A model generated the notes under the pieces. That model saw only the letters and a list, made by a program, of their open reading frames with translations. It was not told the origin of the DNA and did no database searches. The position numbers and the translations under genes were made by a program. A stretch of 64,000 nt of DNA from Pseudovibrio axinellae (GTDB taxonomy: Bacteria > Pseudomonadota > Alphaproteobacteria > Rhizobiales > Stappiaceae). Below, piece by piece: positions 36,625 to 46,202 of the stretch. The first letter of the stretch is position 1, and each line of letters opens with the position of its first letter. The stretch covers positions 186,001 through 250,000 of the forward strand of contig NZ_FOFM01000003.1 of assembly GCF_900110875.1 (NCBI RefSeq), read 5' to 3'.

Positions 36625-38259
36625 ATGCGTAAGGTGCAAGTTGCTGCATTAGATGAATTAGAAGATCGGAAACCCGCTCATGCGTTAGTTGGTGAGGTTG
36701 ATCTTGTCATTGTTAAGTACGACGAGGAAATCTCCGTTCTGTTTGGTCGCTGTCTTCACCGAGGCGCGTTGCTATCTGATGGATTTGTCAGGGGCAAAAA
36801 TCTAATTTGTGGGCTGCATCAGTGGGATTACCGTCTGAGTTCTGGTGTGAGCGCCTACGACAATAAAGAGTGCCTTCAAAAATTCACTCATTTCATCGAG
36901 GAGGACAAAATCTATGTCGACGAAGATGAAGTCAGGTCTTGGGCTAAAGATAATCCGCAGCCGTATTTCCGAAAGGCATATCTTGGTGAATATGCAGACC
37001 TGCATGGCACTGATTTAGAACCGAATAACAAATTGATCCAAAGCTATGCCCGTTCTGGCCTTAAACAAACCGGACATCATGGAGCAATCGAGGCTATGGG
37101 AGTGCCAGGCCCGGAGCTGCCCCGGTGGGACGATATTCAGATTCTGACAGCGCAGTTACATAAACCGCCAAGGCTGGATGCCGAACCAGTTGGAACAGAT
37201 ATTGTGATCGGCCCGAAAGCACAAAAACCTTTACATCTAAAGATTCCGCTTTTTGTATCAGACATGAGCTTTGGTGCTTTATCACAACCGGCCAAGGTTG
37301 CCCTTGCCCGCGGAGCCGAACGTGCTGGAACAGGTATTTGCTCGGGTGAAGGCGGGATGCTGCCAGAAGAGCAAGCTGAAAACTCCAGATATTTTTATGA
37401 ATTGGCCTCGGCTCGTTTCGGGTTCTCCTGGGCACAGCTGGAAAAGGTTCAAGCCTTCCATCTCAAGGGAGGACAGGCAGCCAAAACCGGAACAGGCGGG
37501 CACCTTCCTGCAGCGAAAGTGACAGAGAAGATCGCCTCTGTACGAGGGCTGGAGCCTGGAGAAAGTGCTATCTCTCCAGCCAGATTTCCCGAGTGGATGA
37601 AGCCCGCTGATTTTCGCAATTTTGCAAATGAGGTCAGAGATAGGACGGGCGGAATTCCTATCGGCTTCAAACTGTCGGCGCAACATATTGAAAAAGATAT
37701 CGATGCAGCGCTAGAAGTTGGTGTTGACTACATAATTTTGGATGGGCGAGGCGGGGGGACAGGAGCATCTCCGTTAATCTTTAGGGATAATATCTCGGTG
37801 CCAACCATCCCTGCGTTGGCGCGTGCTCGCCGACATCTGGATCGCTCCGGTCAACGCGATGTGACGCTCGTCATCACGGGAGGCCTCCGCAAGCCTGAGG
37901 ATTTTGTGAAGGCTATGGCTTTGGGCGCTGATGCGATCGCACTGGCGAATGCGCCAATGCAAGCAATTGGCTGCATTGCGATGAGGGCGTGCCACACCAA
38001 TAACTGCCCTGTCGGTATTGCCACCCAGAAAGATCATCTCATTGCTCGGTTGGAAGTCGAAAAATCCGCAAAACGCCTTGAGAAATTCTTCTCTGCTTCG
38101 ATTGAATTGATGAAAGTACTCGCAAGAGCATGCGGACATGCGCACCTTTCGGATTTCGCACTTCAAGACATCACAAGCTGGAAAAAGGAAATGGCAGAAC
38201 TCGCTGGGATCCATTGGGCAGGATACAGCCCTCATAAATATACAGCTGAAAATGATTAG
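36625..38259 (+). CDS. Rieske domain fused to glutamate-synthase-type FMN/[3Fe-4S] domain
   Basis: A 544 aa soluble fusion. Residues 1-100 are a Rieske domain with C43-x-H45 and C62-x-x-H65. From about 150 to the end it matches the FMN-binding central domain of glutamate synthase (S-D-M-S-F-G-A-L-S; G-E-G-G-M-L-P-E-E; D-G-R-G-G-G-T-G-A-S-P), with the [3Fe-4S] ligands Cys450, Cys456 and Cys461 and C-P-V-G-I-A-T-Q. The glutaminase domain is absent, so it is not a normal GltB. It is the first gene of a five-gene redox operon and probably passes electrons between the two iron-sulfur centres and FMN. The substrate is unknown. Confidence 0.87.
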   Translation: MRKVQVAALDELEDRKPAHALVGEVDLVIVKYDEEISVLFGRCLHRGALLSDGFVRGKNLICGLHQWDYRLSSGVSAYDNKECLQKFTHFIEEDKIYVDEDEVRSWAKDNPQPYFRKAYLGEYADLHGTDLEPNNKLIQSYARSGLKQTGHHGAIEAMGVPGPELPRWDDIQILTAQLHKPPRLDAEPVGTDIVIGPKAQKPLHLKIPLFVSDMSFGALSQPAKVALARGAERAGTGICSGEGGMLPEEQAENSRYFYELASARFGFSWAQLEKVQAFHLKGGQAAKTGTGGHLPAAKVTEKIASVRGLEPGESAISPARFPEWMKPADFRNFANEVRDRTGGIPIGFKLSAQHIEKDIDAALEVGVDYIILDGRGGGTGASPLIFRDNISVPTIPALARARRHLDRSGQRDVTLVITGGLRKPEDFVKAMALGADAIALANAPMQAIGCIAMRACHTNNCPVGIATQKDHLIARLEVEKSAKRLEKFFSASIELMKVLARACGHAHLSDFALQDITSWKKEMAELAGIHWAGYSPHKYTAEND

Positions 38260-38271
38260 TGGGTTACAGAT

Positions 38272-38541
38272 ATGATTGTCGGTGAGAGTATAATCTTGAT
38301 CGCCCAAATTTATGGTCTGGTTGGGCTGGGTGTTGCGCTCGTTTTTGTCACAATTGGACTGGGCAGAGTAGAGCTTGCTGCGCGCGGGGCATTCCTTTTT
38401 CGCCTGCAAATTATTCCAGGCATAGTCTTACTTTGGCCAATCGTGATCGTGCGCTGGGTTTCGCTTGAACGATCAGGCGAGAAAGTCATGCTCGATAAAG
38501 AGGAAAAGGAAGTGGCCCAAGAGCAGGAGAATAAGAGTTAA
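38272..38541 (+). CDS. Small two-helix membrane protein of redox operon
   Basis: An 89 aa protein with two predicted membrane helices (about 8-30 and 43-62) and a charged, Glu/Lys-rich tail. It starts 12 bases after the Rieske-FMN gene and its stop overlaps the next ATG (TAATG), so translation is likely coupled. I do not recognise the family; it has no metal-binding residues. A subunit or assembly role for the membrane part of the system is the simplest reading. Confidence 0.72.
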   Translation: MIVGESIILIAQIYGLVGLGVALVFVTIGLGRVELAARGAFLFRLQIIPGIVLLWPIVIVRWVSLERSGEKVMLDKEEKEVAQEQENKS

Positions 38542-38708
38542 TGCAGCGGAACTTTCGAAAAGCTCATCGTGCAATTTGGTTTACTCTTGCGTTTCTCACT
38601 CCGATCATTCTTGGGCTTGCGCTCATGATGCGCCCGACGGGTACCCATGAGCAGCAGCCCATTCCTCTTGATGACACCGCAAAATCGGTTTTGGAGGCAA
38701 ACCAGTGA
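38541..38708 (+). CDS. 55 aa single-helix membrane protein of redox operon
   Basis: A 55 aa frame beginning M-Q-R-N-F-R-K-A-H-R, with one hydrophobic helix (about 12-30) and an acidic tail. Its ATG overlaps the previous stop (TAATG) and its TGA overlaps the next GTG start (GTGA). Both junctions are coupled and leave no untranslated gap, which is the main evidence that it is a gene. The basic start before the helix predicts an N-in topology. It may be a small subunit of the membrane complex. No known family recognised. Confidence 0.7.
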   Translation: MQRNFRKAHRAIWFTLAFLTPIILGLALMMRPTGTHEQQPIPLDDTAKSVLEANQ

Positions 38709-39772
38709 GTGTTAAGTATGTGCCGGTAATATGGAACCGAACAAAACTGTTTTATGATGTAATCGTACTGGCGGTGGTCGGTGCCTACCTAGGAGTTTAC
38801 ATCTATGTTGCACCTATGTTCCAGACGGTTACCAGACCGATAGACTGGGATATTTACAAGGCGCAGGCATTTGGAACCTGTGTATTTTATTTACTCACTT
38901 TTATTCTTTGTATCGGGCCAATTGCGCGATTGGATAAACGCTTCTTGCCGCTCTTATATAATCGTCGTCATCTGGGCGTGATTACCTGTGTTCTTGCCTA
39001 TTTCCATGTCGACTTTATACTTGGCTGGTACAATGCTTTTTCACCAATAAATCGCTATGTATCGGTCTTTGTCGTCAATACGAGTTTTGACCGCTTTCTT
39101 GGATTCCCCTTTGAGATCCTTGGCGTTCTTGCACTCTTAATCCTGACAGTTCTTGCAGTTACCAGCCATGATTTCTGGCTACATTTCCTTAAACCCACCC
39201 TTTGGAAAATTCTCCATATGGGTATCTATCTGGCCTATGCTTTGATTGTTGCCCACGTGGCACTTGGTGCTTTGCAGAGCGCAGCAGGACCGTTCTTGAC
39301 AGGTGTCGTTGGTGCTTCGCTCGCTCTTGTTACAACGCTGCATTTACTTGCCGCAAGACGAGAGCATGTCATCGACACACAGATCAACTTGATGGACGAC
39401 ACGAGAACCTGGCTAGATGCTGGAGACCCCATGGAGGTCCCTGATAAACGCGCAAAGATCATCTCCCTCACAGAGGATGAGCGAGTTGCTATTTTCAGAA
39501 ATGGAACAAAACTCTCTGCAATATCAAACGTATGTGCCCACCAAAACGGACCTCTTGGAGAAGGTAAAATCGTTTATGGGTGTGTCACATGCCCGTGGCA
39601 TGGCTATCAATATCGATTGGAAGATGGAACGTCGCCACCACCGTTTACCGAGAAGATCTCGACATACCGACTTAAGCTGGAGAATGGACGTCTCTGGCTC
39701 AATGTAAAGGCATTGCCACCGGGGACCTATGTTGAACCCGTAATATCTCCGATGTTGGCGGGGGGGAGCTAA
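38705..39772 (+). CDS. Ferric-reductase-like membrane protein with C-terminal Rieske domain
   Basis: A 355 aa protein. Residues 1-220 have about six helices in a ferric-reductase-like arrangement, with candidate heme His pairs H89/H101 and H171/H184. The C-terminal 110 residues are a Rieske domain with C277-x-H279 and C296-x-x-H299. With an even number of helices both ends would be cytoplasmic, next to the Rieske-FMN protein. It starts with GTG inside the preceding stop; its stop overlaps the next ATG. It likely moves electrons across the membrane. Heme content is inferred. Confidence 0.82.
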   Translation: MSVKYVPVIWNRTKLFYDVIVLAVVGAYLGVYIYVAPMFQTVTRPIDWDIYKAQAFGTCVFYLLTFILCIGPIARLDKRFLPLLYNRRHLGVITCVLAYFHVDFILGWYNAFSPINRYVSVFVVNTSFDRFLGFPFEILGVLALLILTVLAVTSHDFWLHFLKPTLWKILHMGIYLAYALIVAHVALGALQSAAGPFLTGVVGASLALVTTLHLLAARREHVIDTQINLMDDTRTWLDAGDPMEVPDKRAKIISLTEDERVAIFRNGTKLSAISNVCAHQNGPLGEGKIVYGCVTCPWHGYQYRLEDGTSPPPFTEKISTYRLKLENGRLWLNVKALPPGTYVEPVISPMLAGGS

Positions 39773-40542
39773 TGGCCAAGAAGAAACCAGATCCCTTTTT
39801 CATCGGTTGGGCAAAAAAGCCACCGAAGAGCTTACACGGCTTTCTTTTCTTCATTTCTGCTGCCTTGGTTGGTGCGGCAGCCGGTGTTGCATTCGGCATC
39901 GGATCATCACTGCCTGATCCCGGGGACGCGCGGTTTGCTTGGGGCGCAGGATATCAGACCTTCACAGGTTATGTGGATGCAAAGCCCTATCCACTTCTCA
40001 GGTTACCAGCTGGTGAAGGGGGGCGTAGCAAACCGCATGCGATGCTAATTTCCGGAATTGGTAAGCGCGGTATGCAGCAATTGGCAGGCCCATTGAGTGG
40101 AATGCCTGTCGACGCCGGCGGAATTTTGCTTAAACGCGGTAATCTCGATATGTTGCAAGTCGGTGGCCGCGTCTCGCTTCGAGCTGCAGAAACCCCGGTA
40201 CCGAACTTTACACCAGCTCAGGCCGAACAGTTAGGTAAATGGCGTTTAACTGGCGAGATCTGTGATGGCAAATGTTATAATGGTGCAATGCGTCCAGGCA
40301 CTGGCCTTGCCCACAAAGCCTGCGCAAACTTGTGCATCATTGGTGGGATCCCACCCGTATTTGTGACTGTAACGCCGCTGTTAGGCCAGACGTTTTTCTT
40401 GCTCGCAGATGAGAACGGAGAACCATTGTCTTCTGACGTCGAAGACTGGGTTGCCTTGTTGATTTCTTTGGAGGGAGAGGTTGAGCGCCGTGATGATTTG
40501 ATGATCTTCAAGGTGAAGTTGGATAGCGCCAAACAGTTATAA
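39772..40542 (+). CDS. Membrane-anchored protein with CxxxC/HxxCxxxC cluster, unknown family
   Basis: A 256 aa protein with one N-terminal helix (about 22-44) and the rest predicted outside the cytoplasm. The C-terminal part has C164-x-x-x-C168 and H181-x-x-C184-x-x-x-C188, followed by I-G-G-I-P-P. This could bind a metal, heme or iron-sulfur centre, or form disulfides. I recall similar motifs in uncharacterised proteins but cannot name a family. As the last gene of the coupled operon it is the likely external partner of the ferric-reductase-like protein. Confidence 0.75.
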   Translation: MAKKKPDPFFIGWAKKPPKSLHGFLFFISAALVGAAAGVAFGIGSSLPDPGDARFAWGAGYQTFTGYVDAKPYPLLRLPAGEGGRSKPHAMLISGIGKRGMQQLAGPLSGMPVDAGGILLKRGNLDMLQVGGRVSLRAAETPVPNFTPAQAEQLGKWRLTGEICDGKCYNGAMRPGTGLAHKACANLCIIGGIPPVFVTVTPLLGQTFFLLADENGEPLSSDVEDWVALLISLEGEVERRDDLMIFKVKLDSAKQL

Positions 40543-44124: not shown

Positions 44125-45357
44125 GTGGAATTGGATGCAGTAAGCATTGAGCAGAAAGATCAGCAGGATCAACTTGCACATCTTCGGCAGCATTTTTCTC
44201 TTCCAGAAGGTGTCATCTATCTGGATGGAAACTCTCTCGGTGCCTTACCGAGCAATGTCTCTGCAGTGCTGCAAAATGCAGTTGAAGAGCAATGGGGCCA
44301 AAGTCTCATTAAAGGATGGAATTGCCACAACTGGATTGACCTTCCAAGCAGAGTTGGGAACCGCATCGCGAAGCTCGTTGGGGCTGATGAAGGAACCCTA
44401 ATTTGCGCAGACAGTACCTCCCTAAATGTTTTCAAGGTTCTAGCTACAGCGATTAAATTGCGTCCTGATCGAAAAGTGATCTTGTCCGATACCGGAAACT
44501 TTCCAACAGACCTTTACATGGCACAGGGGCTTAAAGAGCTTGTATCGGACGAAATTGAACTACGTCTGGTCGCGCCGGAAGATGTCGAAGATGCGTTGGA
44601 TGAAACTGTCGCAGTGATGATGATCACTGAGGTGGATTATCGAACAGGCCGCAAGCATGATATGAAGGCGCTTACACAAAAAGCACATTCTGTTGGCGCT
44701 CTTGCGTTGTGGGACCTGTGCCATTCCGCCGGTGCCTTCCCTGTACATCTGAAAGAGGCAAAAGCTGACTTCGCGGTTGGGTGTTCCTACAAGTACTTAA
44801 ATGGTGGCCCGGGCGCTCCTGCATTTGTGTATGTCGCTCCAAAGCATCAAGGCTCCTCTGGCAATCCGCTGACAGGTTGGATGGGGCACAACGCACCGTT
44901 TGCGTTTGATCTGGGATACGCACCTTCGGTCAAAACGGATCAGATGCGAGTGGGTACCCCACAAGTGCTGGCAATGACTGCGTTGAACGCGGCGTTAGAT
45001 GTGTTTGATCACACGACGCTGGAGGCATTGCAGGCAAAGTCTATCGAATTGAGTGAGCTCTTTATCTCAGAAATACAGCGTCGCTGCCCAGGTCTGGAGC
45101 TTGCCTCACCGACTGATCCATTGAAGCGCGGCTCCCAAGTCTCTTTCAGTCATGAGCATGGGTACCCCATTATGCAAGCTCTAATCGATCGCGGTGTCAT
45201 TGGTGACTTCCGTGCACCAAATATCATCCGTTTTGGGTTTGCACCGCTTTACCTTTCATTTGCAGATGTTCTCAAAGCAGCTGAAATTATTGAAGAAGTT
45301 ATTGCCGGAAACCTCTGGGACAAGCCGCAATACCACCAAAAAAGCAAGGTTACTTGA
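44125..45357 (+). CDS. kynU: Kynureninase
   Basis: A 410 aa PLP enzyme. The PLP lysine is K223 in C-S-Y-K-Y-L-N-G-G-P-G. The N-terminal Y-L-D-G-N-S-L-G-A-L-P is typical. It splits kynurenine (or 3-hydroxykynurenine) into anthranilate and alanine. The start is GTG 44125 with a cagagga before it. kynA begins within three bases after its stop. The kynurenine formamidase gene that would complete the route is not in the window. Confidence 0.95.
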   Translation: MELDAVSIEQKDQQDQLAHLRQHFSLPEGVIYLDGNSLGALPSNVSAVLQNAVEEQWGQSLIKGWNCHNWIDLPSRVGNRIAKLVGADEGTLICADSTSLNVFKVLATAIKLRPDRKVILSDTGNFPTDLYMAQGLKELVSDEIELRLVAPEDVEDALDETVAVMMITEVDYRTGRKHDMKALTQKAHSVGALALWDLCHSAGAFPVHLKEAKADFAVGCSYKYLNGGPGAPAFVYVAPKHQGSSGNPLTGWMGHNAPFAFDLGYAPSVKTDQMRVGTPQVLAMTALNAALDVFDHTTLEALQAKSIELSELFISEIQRRCPGLELASPTDPLKRGSQVSFSHEHGYPIMQALIDRGVIGDFRAPNIIRFGFAPLYLSFADVLKAAEIIEEVIAGNLWDKPQYHQKSKVT

Positions 45358-45359
45358 AT

Positions 45360-46202
45360 ATGGACAAGAGCATAGATCGCGAAATGGAGCATCATGGGGC
45401 AGAGCTCTCTTTCAAAGATAATATGTCCTATGGTGATTACCTTAAACTCTCAGATGTGTTGGGGGCCCAAGCTCCTTTAACGGACGCGCATGATGAGTTG
45501 CTGTTTATCATCCAGCACCAAACTGCTGAGCTTTGGATGAAACTTGCAATTCGTGAGATGTCGGAGGCGTGTGATGCTTTGGCACAAGATGAATTCGCAC
45601 AAGCTTCCAAGCTCATGGCTCGCGTTAATAAAATTTTCTATCAGCTGAACAGCGCGTGGGACATTTTACGCACCATGACGCCAAGTGATTACACCACTTT
45701 TCGTGATAGTCTTGGCAAATCATCAGGCTTCCAAAGCTACCAGTATCGGGCTATCGAATTTGTGGTTGGCAACAAAAATCCAGCCTTGATGAAGCCACAT
45801 GACCATTTACCAGAAGTATCCAAATGGCTCCGCGAGATTTATGAGGCGCCGGGTATCTATGACCAGATGGTGCGGGCTGTCGCACGCGCAGGGTTCGATA
45901 TTTCCAAGGATGTTTTGAACAGAGATGTGACACGGCCTTATACAACTGATGCGTCAGTTCAAAAGGCCTGGGCAATTATCTACCGTAACCCTCGCGATAA
46001 TTGGCACTTTTATGACCTTGCAGAAAAGCTCATCGATTTTGAAGATTTTTTCCGCAGGTGGCGCTTCAATCACCTTACGACCGTAGAGCGGATTATCGGC
46101 AGTAAAATGGGAACTGGCGGTACTTCTGGCGCACCGTACCTGAAAAAAATGTTGGATACTGTGTTGTTTCCAGAGCTTTGGCAGGTGCGTAGTGATTTGT
46201 AA
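45360..46202 (+). CDS. kynA: Tryptophan 2,3-dioxygenase
   Basis: A 280 aa heme dioxygenase. It shows M-S-Y-G-D-Y-L-K-L near the start and F-I-I-Q-H-Q-T-A-E-L-W-M-K, a typical catalytic region with its His. The C-terminus has the T-G-G-T-S-G-A-P-Y-L active-site segment. It opens tryptophan to N-formylkynurenine. It is co-transcribed with kynU. ATG 45360 is preferred; a TTG at 45354 overlapping the kynU stop is possible. Confidence 0.95.
   Translation: MDKSIDREMEHHGAELSFKDNMSYGDYLKLSDVLGAQAPLTDAHDELLFIIQHQTAELWMKLAIREMSEACDALAQDEFAQASKLMARVNKIFYQLNSAWDILRTMTPSDYTTFRDSLGKSSGFQSYQYRAIEFVVGNKNPALMKPHDHLPEVSKWLREIYEAPGIYDQMVRAVARAGFDISKDVLNRDVTRPYTTDASVQKAWAIIYRNPRDNWHFYDLAEKLIDFEDFFRRWRFNHLTTVERIIGSKMGTGGTSGAPYLKKMLDTVLFPELWQVRSDL

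Follow-up and report, generated by a model that had tools for sequence, protein, structure and literature searches.

What do five tightly coupled genes, two of them encoding proteins with Rieske domains, do together in the genome of Pseudovibrio axinellae? We address this question for an operon on the + strand of a 64,000-nucleotide stretch (the window, at its full length) of this 5.1-Mb genome; the nearest named relatives of the locus, at no more than 92% identity in the last protein, P5, are Pseudovibrio. Our analyses demonstrate that the last four genes, P2-P3-P4-P5, form a conserved core and that the first, P1, is an optional client tied to P4 and not the reverse. The explanation that we put forward, and whose chances we consider evenly balanced, is that P2–P5 constitute a transmembrane electron unit linking cytosolic enzymes tagged with a Rieske domain to the periplasmic P5. 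The system is conserved and real and, according to the literature searched, in which preprints were outside the coverage and subscription papers few, it is undescribed: no published description of the operon was found there. An earlier reading of the DNA letters alone (the sequence-only reading) had known of no described pathway with this gene set, and none was found in that literature, nor was a homologue with a defined substrate, which could have undone that reading. The ORF coordinates were re-checked, and the set occupies window positions 36625–40542:

36625..38259, + strand: P1, 544 residues; N-terminal Rieske domain (residues 4–85), a linker and a glutamate synthase (GltS)-type core for flavin mononucleotide (FMN) and [3Fe-4S] (residues 196–504)
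36634..36879, + strand: Rieske domain of P1; ligands C43, H45, C62 and H65, from Pfam and alignment
37210..38136, + strand: glutamate-synthase core of P1; C450-x5-C456-x4-C461 for [3Fe-4S], from Pfam, PDB matches and alignment
38272..38541, + strand: P2, membrane protein of 89 residues
38541..38708, + strand: P3, membrane protein of 55 residues; R-x-A-H-x3-W ahead of its helix
38705..39772, + strand: P4, 355 residues; six-helix ferric-reductase domain of the MsrQ/YedZ type and a C-terminal ferredoxin-type Rieske domain
38738..39382, + strand: membrane domain of P4 (residues 12–226); R87, H101, H171 and H184, and the extra H89, H155 and H213
39410..39703, + strand: Rieske domain of P4 (residues 236–333); ligands C277, H279, C296 and H299; probably on the cytosolic side, judging from topology
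39772..40542, + strand: P5, 256 residues; basic N-terminus, single anchor helix (19–46) and two domains resembling the oligonucleotide/oligosaccharide-binding (OB) fold
40252..40353, + strand: signature of P5, a candidate metal or redox-thiol site; G-E-x2-D-x-K-C-x2-G-x-M-x-P-G-x-G-x2-H-x2-C-x3-C-x2-G-G-x-P

The tight junctions that the sequence-only reading reported are read directly from the DNA, as TAATG at P2/P3, GTGA at P3/P4 and TAATG at P4/P5, and a gap of 12 bases separates P1 from P2. It had also described a unit of five genes; five coupled ORFs are indeed present, but the conserved unit is P2–P5, and its proposal that conservation across genomes be checked led to the finding that the genes stay together in several alphaproteobacterial orders. 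We used samples of 289 Alphaproteobacteria, of 398 genomes across the phylum and of 16 Pseudovibrio genomes, with thresholds of E ≤ 1e-30 for P4 and E ≤ 1e-89 for full-length P5 in the phylum sample and E ≤ 1e-100 for the Rieske form of P1 in the 289-genome sample. Of the 398 genomes, the seven that have P4 are also the seven that have full-length P5, all of them Alphaproteobacteria. In the 289-genome sample, full-length P4 is present in 14 Alphaproteobacteria besides that of the window, at 46–54% identity, and next to it lie P2 in 14/14 and P5 in 13/14; in the exception (L063), a Rieske protein follows P4 and the contig ends about 2 kb past P4. We further analysed 80 loci, the best 80 of at least 573 P5 relatives in a profile scan of named genomes; by their titles all are alphaproteobacterial, leaving room for rarer or more distant hosts beyond that class. 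As these loci were picked by P5 similarity, linkage is overstated among them, a bias of which the 289- and 398-genome samples are free. Homologues clustered with P5 in 78 of the 80 loci, with P4 in 76, with P2 in 75, with P1 in 38 and with a separate P3 gene in 32. The two loci outside the P5 cluster (L141 and L148, both metagenome assemblies) hold in-frame P4–P5 fusions, and only fragments of P4 were seen in L113, at the contig start, and in L118. With starts placed by script, the P4 stop and P5 start overlap by 4 or 1 bases in 59/76 loci. The shared 7 genomes, the P5 neighbour of P4 in 13/14, these overlaps and the fusions support reading P2–P5 as a unit.

The two small membrane proteins, like P5, have no Pfam family in a scan of all five proteins, and would be accessory subunits. 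Where a separate P3 is missing, P2 may be extended instead, by 55 residues or more in at least 31 of the 75 P2 proteins, and in many genomes the tail standing in for P3 is 58–69 residues long. A small membrane gene often trails P2–P5 as well, with three such clusters in 30 of the 80 loci.

The attachment of P1 is looser. It shares the locus with P5 in 38 of the 80 cases, 36 of them on the same strand and three with P1 downstream of P5, and is elsewhere unlinked or absent. Its Rieske form was found in 8 of the 289 genomes, seven of which have P4 (Fisher 1.6e-9, kinship not corrected); P4 is missing only from G114, whose genome is 67% complete. Of the other seven, three have P1 and P4 side by side, two have them about 17 kb apart on a single contig and two carry them on separate contigs; it is this association, kept even across contigs, that supports P1 as a client of P4. 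Among the Pseudovibrio genomes, P4 is present in 12/16 and full-length P1 in 10/16, all ten being among the 12. Remnants are preserved: in P. exalbescens (L075, 7042–7425), residues 1–54 and 325–404 of P1 remain, with a large internal loss, ahead of an intact P2–P5, and in another Pseudovibrio (G007, C11:878759-879232) three short P1 pieces lie directly upstream of P4; G010 is likewise without full-length P1. The histories of P1 and P2–P5 are separable, with P1 lost or moved in several genomes, as one would expect if unrelated redox genes merely stood side by side; such a chance arrangement is, however, already disfavoured by the co-inheritance of even unlinked genes, the overlapping reading frames and the fusions, and we regard it as most improbable.

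How might electrons cross the membrane? P4 joins a ferric-reductase domain (FRD; Ferric_reduct, PF01794, 40.6 bits against a cut-off of 28) to a Rieske domain (46.3 bits), and its AlphaFold2 (AF2) model has six long helices at a mean predicted local distance difference test score (pLDDT) of 82.1. In an alignment with E. coli MsrQ by hhalign (E 5.6e-6, 25% identity), R87, H101, H171 and H184 fall on R77, H91, H151 and H164. The signature of YedZ and STEAP1, an Arg in place of the first heme His together with the equivalents of His-115/209/222 (PMC3591440, in the text available), thus has its Arg and three His in P4. The His pairs that the sequence-only reading saw in a ferric-reductase-like core are conserved, but their pattern is this one and not that of four canonical His. 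H89, H101, H155, H171, H184 and the Rieske ligands C277, H279, C296 and H299 are invariant in 71/71 aligned rows and H213 in 69/71, six of the 76 P4 proteins having been left out for a missing start motif. H89, H155 and H213 have no counterpart in MsrQ, and with these His conserved beyond its pattern, P4 may hold one or more hemes, probably of b type. Both ends of the membrane domain are predicted from basic loops to be cytosolic, and so, therefore, would be the Rieske domain, whose closest kin are dioxygenase ferredoxins.

The MsrQ-type core is what supports the idea of a membrane wire. In MsrPQ (YedYZ), the periplasmic methionine sulfoxide reductase, as in the operon, such a core is encoded alongside a periplasmic partner, to which MsrQ hands electrons (PMC5676040, in the part accessible). 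The operon differs in being without MsrP, and P4 in having a Rieske domain of its own, probably cytosolic, and three more conserved His; P4 scores 28.5 bits on the NCBIfam equivalog of MsrQ against a cut-off of 130 while being the genome's sole match to that model at E ≤ 0.001. A scan of the five operon proteins and of seven from the flanks found no MsrP molybdoenzyme, and with this and the low equivalog score a true MsrPQ was ruled out. Two further candidates were dismissed: a NOX-like oxidase or NOX/FRE reductase, since the FRD of P4 is followed by a Rieske domain only and by no FAD/NADPH domain, and a cytochrome bc1/b6f-like complex, since none of the five proteins is a bc-type cytochrome b and the P4 Rieske is of the ferredoxin type. 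The combination of FRD and Rieske is itself already on record, though not clearly in the layout of P4: among the domains that extend FRD proteins in bacteria, Zhang et al. 2013 list Rieske, as model M4 (PMC3591440), the legend of which also names an FMN domain, absent from P4. The accessible text on that model assigns no function or operon and does not mention P1, P2, P3, P5 or the thiamine pyrophosphate (TPP) enzyme discussed below. In the MsrQ-like flavinylated extracytosolic systems, as presented in the available part of PMC8238504, an MsrQ-type membrane protein likewise connects donors in the cytosol with a redox protein that is exported; here, by contrast, the donor side is Rieske and the exported side a Cys/His OB protein, and Pfam found no FMN_bind domain in any of the five proteins.

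On the other side of the membrane, P5 would be the acceptor. The positive-inside rule places it, by prediction, in the periplasm, and the AF2 model built from 63 rows (mean pLDDT 89.2) shows a single anchor helix together with two domains of OB-like fold. The search for a relative in the PDB gave a best sequence-profile match of E 1.1 and a best Foldseek match of E 0.23 (NlpE), followed mostly by OB proteins. The C-x3-C and H-x2-C-x3-C noticed earlier are present as C164/C168 and H181/C184/C188, and their conservation exceeds what chance would give. In the alignment of 63 rows (62 selected from 78 clustered P5 proteins, plus that of the window), G161, D165, K167, C168, G171, M173, P175, G176, H181, C184, C188 and P194 are invariant and C164 nearly, but not fully, so; the invariant D165, K167, C168, M173, H181, C184 and C188 sit in the second OB-like domain. 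If this picture is true, P5 defines a new family of periplasmic redox or metal proteins.

The donor that the window itself offers is P1, presumably a soluble cytosolic protein. Its Rieske (46.9 bits) and Glu_synthase (303.3 bits) matches, together with the Rieske match in P4, bear out the earlier claim of two Rieske centres in different proteins; both have the C-x-H ... C-x2-H ligands of a [2Fe-2S] Rieske domain. Equally sound was the claim of a GltS-type [3Fe-4S]/FMN core without a glutaminase: P1 matches GltS chains in the PDB in the synthase part only, with the FMN core and the C-x5-C-x4-C cysteines of the [3Fe-4S] cluster, and has no glutaminase domain, N-terminal in the glutamate synthase large subunit. 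C43, H45, C450 and C461 are invariant in 39/39 aligned rows, and C62, H65 and C456 in 38/39; P1 has no PPPHHD stretch as in GltS, and Pfam matched no nucleotide-binding reductase domain in any of the five operon proteins. A cation/H+ antiporter gene lies immediately upstream of P1 in 12 of the 38 P1 loci (e.g., L085, where the call is Pfam based, L087, L092 and L127) and, by eye, upstream of unlinked P1 in L172 and L173.

P1 has a revealing set of relatives. In P1-like proteins of four sampled genomes, two CDGSH motifs replace the Rieske domain ahead of a core 66–68% identical to that of P1; Pfam recognizes two zf-CDGSH stretches in the relative from L176, and four further relatives were identified by eye. 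These CDGSH2-GltS proteins are the type 5 CISD proteins of PMC3174974, the available text of which describes the function of CISD proteins as yet to be understood. P1 shares their GltS FMN core but bears a Rieske domain where they have the CDGSH pair, and it goes with P4. None of the four genomes holding only the CDGSH form has P4, a small number, which supports a client role for the Rieske form; G014 carries a CDGSH2-GltS copy alongside a Rieske-form P1. In a tree of the core, from which three P1 rows without the trimming motif and six others (near-copies and the incomplete L141) were left out, the two forms part with two changes in total, with weak support: the CDGSH forms fall on one side of a branch in 73/100 replicates, the Rieske forms make a single group in 38% of bootstrap trees and the outgroup branches are very long. 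From this tree, the exchange of Rieske and CDGSH likely happened once. If P1 is indeed a client of P4, the orphan GltS core of the type 5 CDGSH proteins would gain its first physiological partner.

The wider system includes a second Rieske-fused enzyme. A protein with Rieske and TPP domains is encoded in 24 of the 80 loci, 21 of these with P1 (21/38 P1 loci), and in nine, mostly Roseibium/Labrenzia, it stands between P1 and P2 in one gene run. In the 289-genome sample it occurs in 6/7 genomes with P1 and P4, in 0/8 with P4 alone and in six without P4; the first two counts support the view that enzymes with a Rieske domain are clients. Its nearest solved relative is E. coli PoxB, the pyruvate:ubiquinone oxidoreductase (3EYA, E 3e-67, residues 3–528 of 572), and its best NCBIfam model is pyruvate oxidase, all 25 models displayed scoring below their cut-off. 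It differs from PoxB in having an N-terminal Rieske domain and in stopping where the last 44 residues of PoxB start, a C-terminal segment that in PoxB serves membrane binding. Among genomes without P4, we also saw fusions of CDGSH, Rieske and a PoxB-like TPP enzyme, of about 800–930 residues (L168, with Fer4_19, by Pfam; L166, L169 and L171 by eye).

Under the explanation that we put forward, Rieske-tagged soluble enzymes (P1 here; P1 and/or the PoxB-like TPP enzyme elsewhere) would trade electrons with P4 through its Rieske domain on the cytosolic side, and the heme or hemes of its MsrQ-type core would carry these across the membrane to the Cys/His site of P5, or to quinone en route. The net path would be outward, from an FMN or TPP enzyme through two Rieske centres and heme b to P5, and we consider this direction the more likely because the PoxB-like client can only donate and because MsrQ, in the available part of PMC5676040, gives its electrons to a periplasmic protein. 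The membrane-crossing chain between a soluble flavoprotein and an exported Cys/His protein that the sequence-only reading had proposed, in either direction, remains the best fit to anatomy, conservation and co-occurrence. Electrons might instead end in the membrane, with P4 oxidizing the tagged enzymes and reducing ubiquinone, and P5 being a structural or sensor protein and not the acceptor. The loss of the PoxB end, the conserved His of P4 beyond the MsrQ pattern and the description of MsrQ as quinone binding (PMC8238504, in part) are all in keeping with such an adaptor, which we nevertheless think unlikely: the C3H motif of P5 is strictly conserved, P4 and full-length P5 go together across the phylum sample, and a quinone site in P4 cannot be shown from sequence. 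The flow might also be inward, from a quinol or a periplasmic donor through P4 and its Rieske domain into a reductive, glutamate-synthase-like reaction of P1. GltS enzymes do use electrons, P1 would need an external donor as no nucleotide-binding reductase domain was matched in the five proteins, and the antiporter upstream of P1 in 12/38 loci is compatible with an ion-driven process. Quinol, however, has little reducing power towards the flavin of GltS, the PoxB-like client is able only to donate and the missing PPPHHD stretch makes the normal GltS reaction of P1 doubtful, such that inward flow appears quite improbable to us.

Evidence on what P5 may do comes from short secreted relatives of its C-terminal domain (P5C), Cys/His proteins of 140–190 residues present in 8 of the 398 phylum-sample genomes and not in the window's own. 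In 8/8 loci, P5C adjoins SCO1/SenC and a second secreted protein without a Pfam family, and this recurrence counts in favour of our explanation. SCO1/SenC is a copper chaperone/thiol family. P5C is found in 5/7 genomes with full-length P5 against 3/391 others (Fisher 1.4e-8, kinship not corrected); the SCO1 triad and the P2–P5 module thus tend to share genomes, and the idea that the two replace each other fails in general, as both are present in those five. In Filomicrobium (L136), P5C and its secreted partner, the first two genes of the triad, share one locus with P1, P2–P5 and the Rieske-TPP enzyme. Maintaining the reduced state of a Cu/Fe ion or of a disulfide within the motif of P5 could accordingly be the physiological job of the system, with the cytosolic enzymes as mere convenient donors; reduction of Fe and Cu is described for STEAP, a relative with an FRD (PMC3591440, in the text available). 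Against this, no recurring metal transporter or other periplasmic enzyme stands beside P5 among the 37 largest clusters, and we hold this reductase role to be rather unlikely, though less so than the quinone adaptor; it is a narrower form of our explanation, not its opposite. Near the SCO1 triad we also observed mdoG-like and glucosyltransferase (opgG/opgH-like) genes in three loci (the L158-L165, L206-L213 set) and a stand-alone FRD protein (L163, 188–790).

Several observations weigh against the explanation that P2–P5 serve Rieske-tagged enzymes. Of the 15 genomes with P4 in the 289-genome sample, eight lack P1 as well as the Rieske-TPP enzyme, which leaves most donors of P4 unaccounted for; conversely, 6/12 genomes with the Rieske-TPP enzyme are without P4, and none was found in the 16 Pseudovibrio genomes searched, that of the window included. 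In one Rhizobium plasmid, the neighbours of the module are instead a TPP enzyme that has no Rieske domain, a CoA transferase, OpgC and a short-chain dehydrogenase/reductase. P1, if it acts as a synthase, would consume electrons, and the co-occurrence statistics ignore phylogeny.

We also offer a broader proposal as tentative and somewhat doubtful: that the operon belongs to an undescribed modular electron-export complex of Alphaproteobacteria, in which a shared "Rieske plug" joins interchangeable enzymes to P2–P5 for delivery to a new periplasmic OB-fold Cys3-His family. Relatives of the enzymes so joined would be equipped otherwise in place of the Rieske domain, with CDGSH as the plug in the case of P1 and, in PoxB, with a membrane tail at the C-terminus. 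If true, the Rieske domain is a swappable connector routing metabolic enzymes onto one membrane wire, and fused Rieske connectors add a donor-side principle to MsrQ-type transmembrane electron transfer. The system is directly testable because it is present in cultured genera: Pseudovibrio, Roseibium, Rhizobium and roseobacters.

The surroundings of the module are varied. A set of TPP enzyme, tetratricopeptide repeat (TPR) protein and OpgC lies beside P2–P5 in 9/80 loci (L094, L095, L098, L103, L122, L124, L135, L079 and L081) and beside the SCO1 triad in L212, often accompanied by genes for a secreted esterase and a CoA transferase of class III. Downstream of P2–P5 on a Rhizobium plasmid (L184, 11191–14385) are genes for TetR, an extracytoplasmic function (ECF) sigma factor, DUF1109, NrsF and a chlorite-dismutase-family protein; a link to chlorite stress was dropped, as only one of the 80 loci (L124) repeats the whole set and three have the dismutase-like gene. 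Anti-phage defence was likewise set aside, PADLOC giving no match for any of the five proteins. In the window, the flanks of the operon look ordinary, with a nitroreductase and, on the opposite strand, a MoaB-like gene upstream and a glutathione S-transferase downstream. Farther along, at 44125–46202, we noted by eye adjoining kynureninase-like and tryptophan 2,3-dioxygenase-like ORFs, followed by an ATP-binding cassette (ABC) transporter of the branched-chain amino-acid type.

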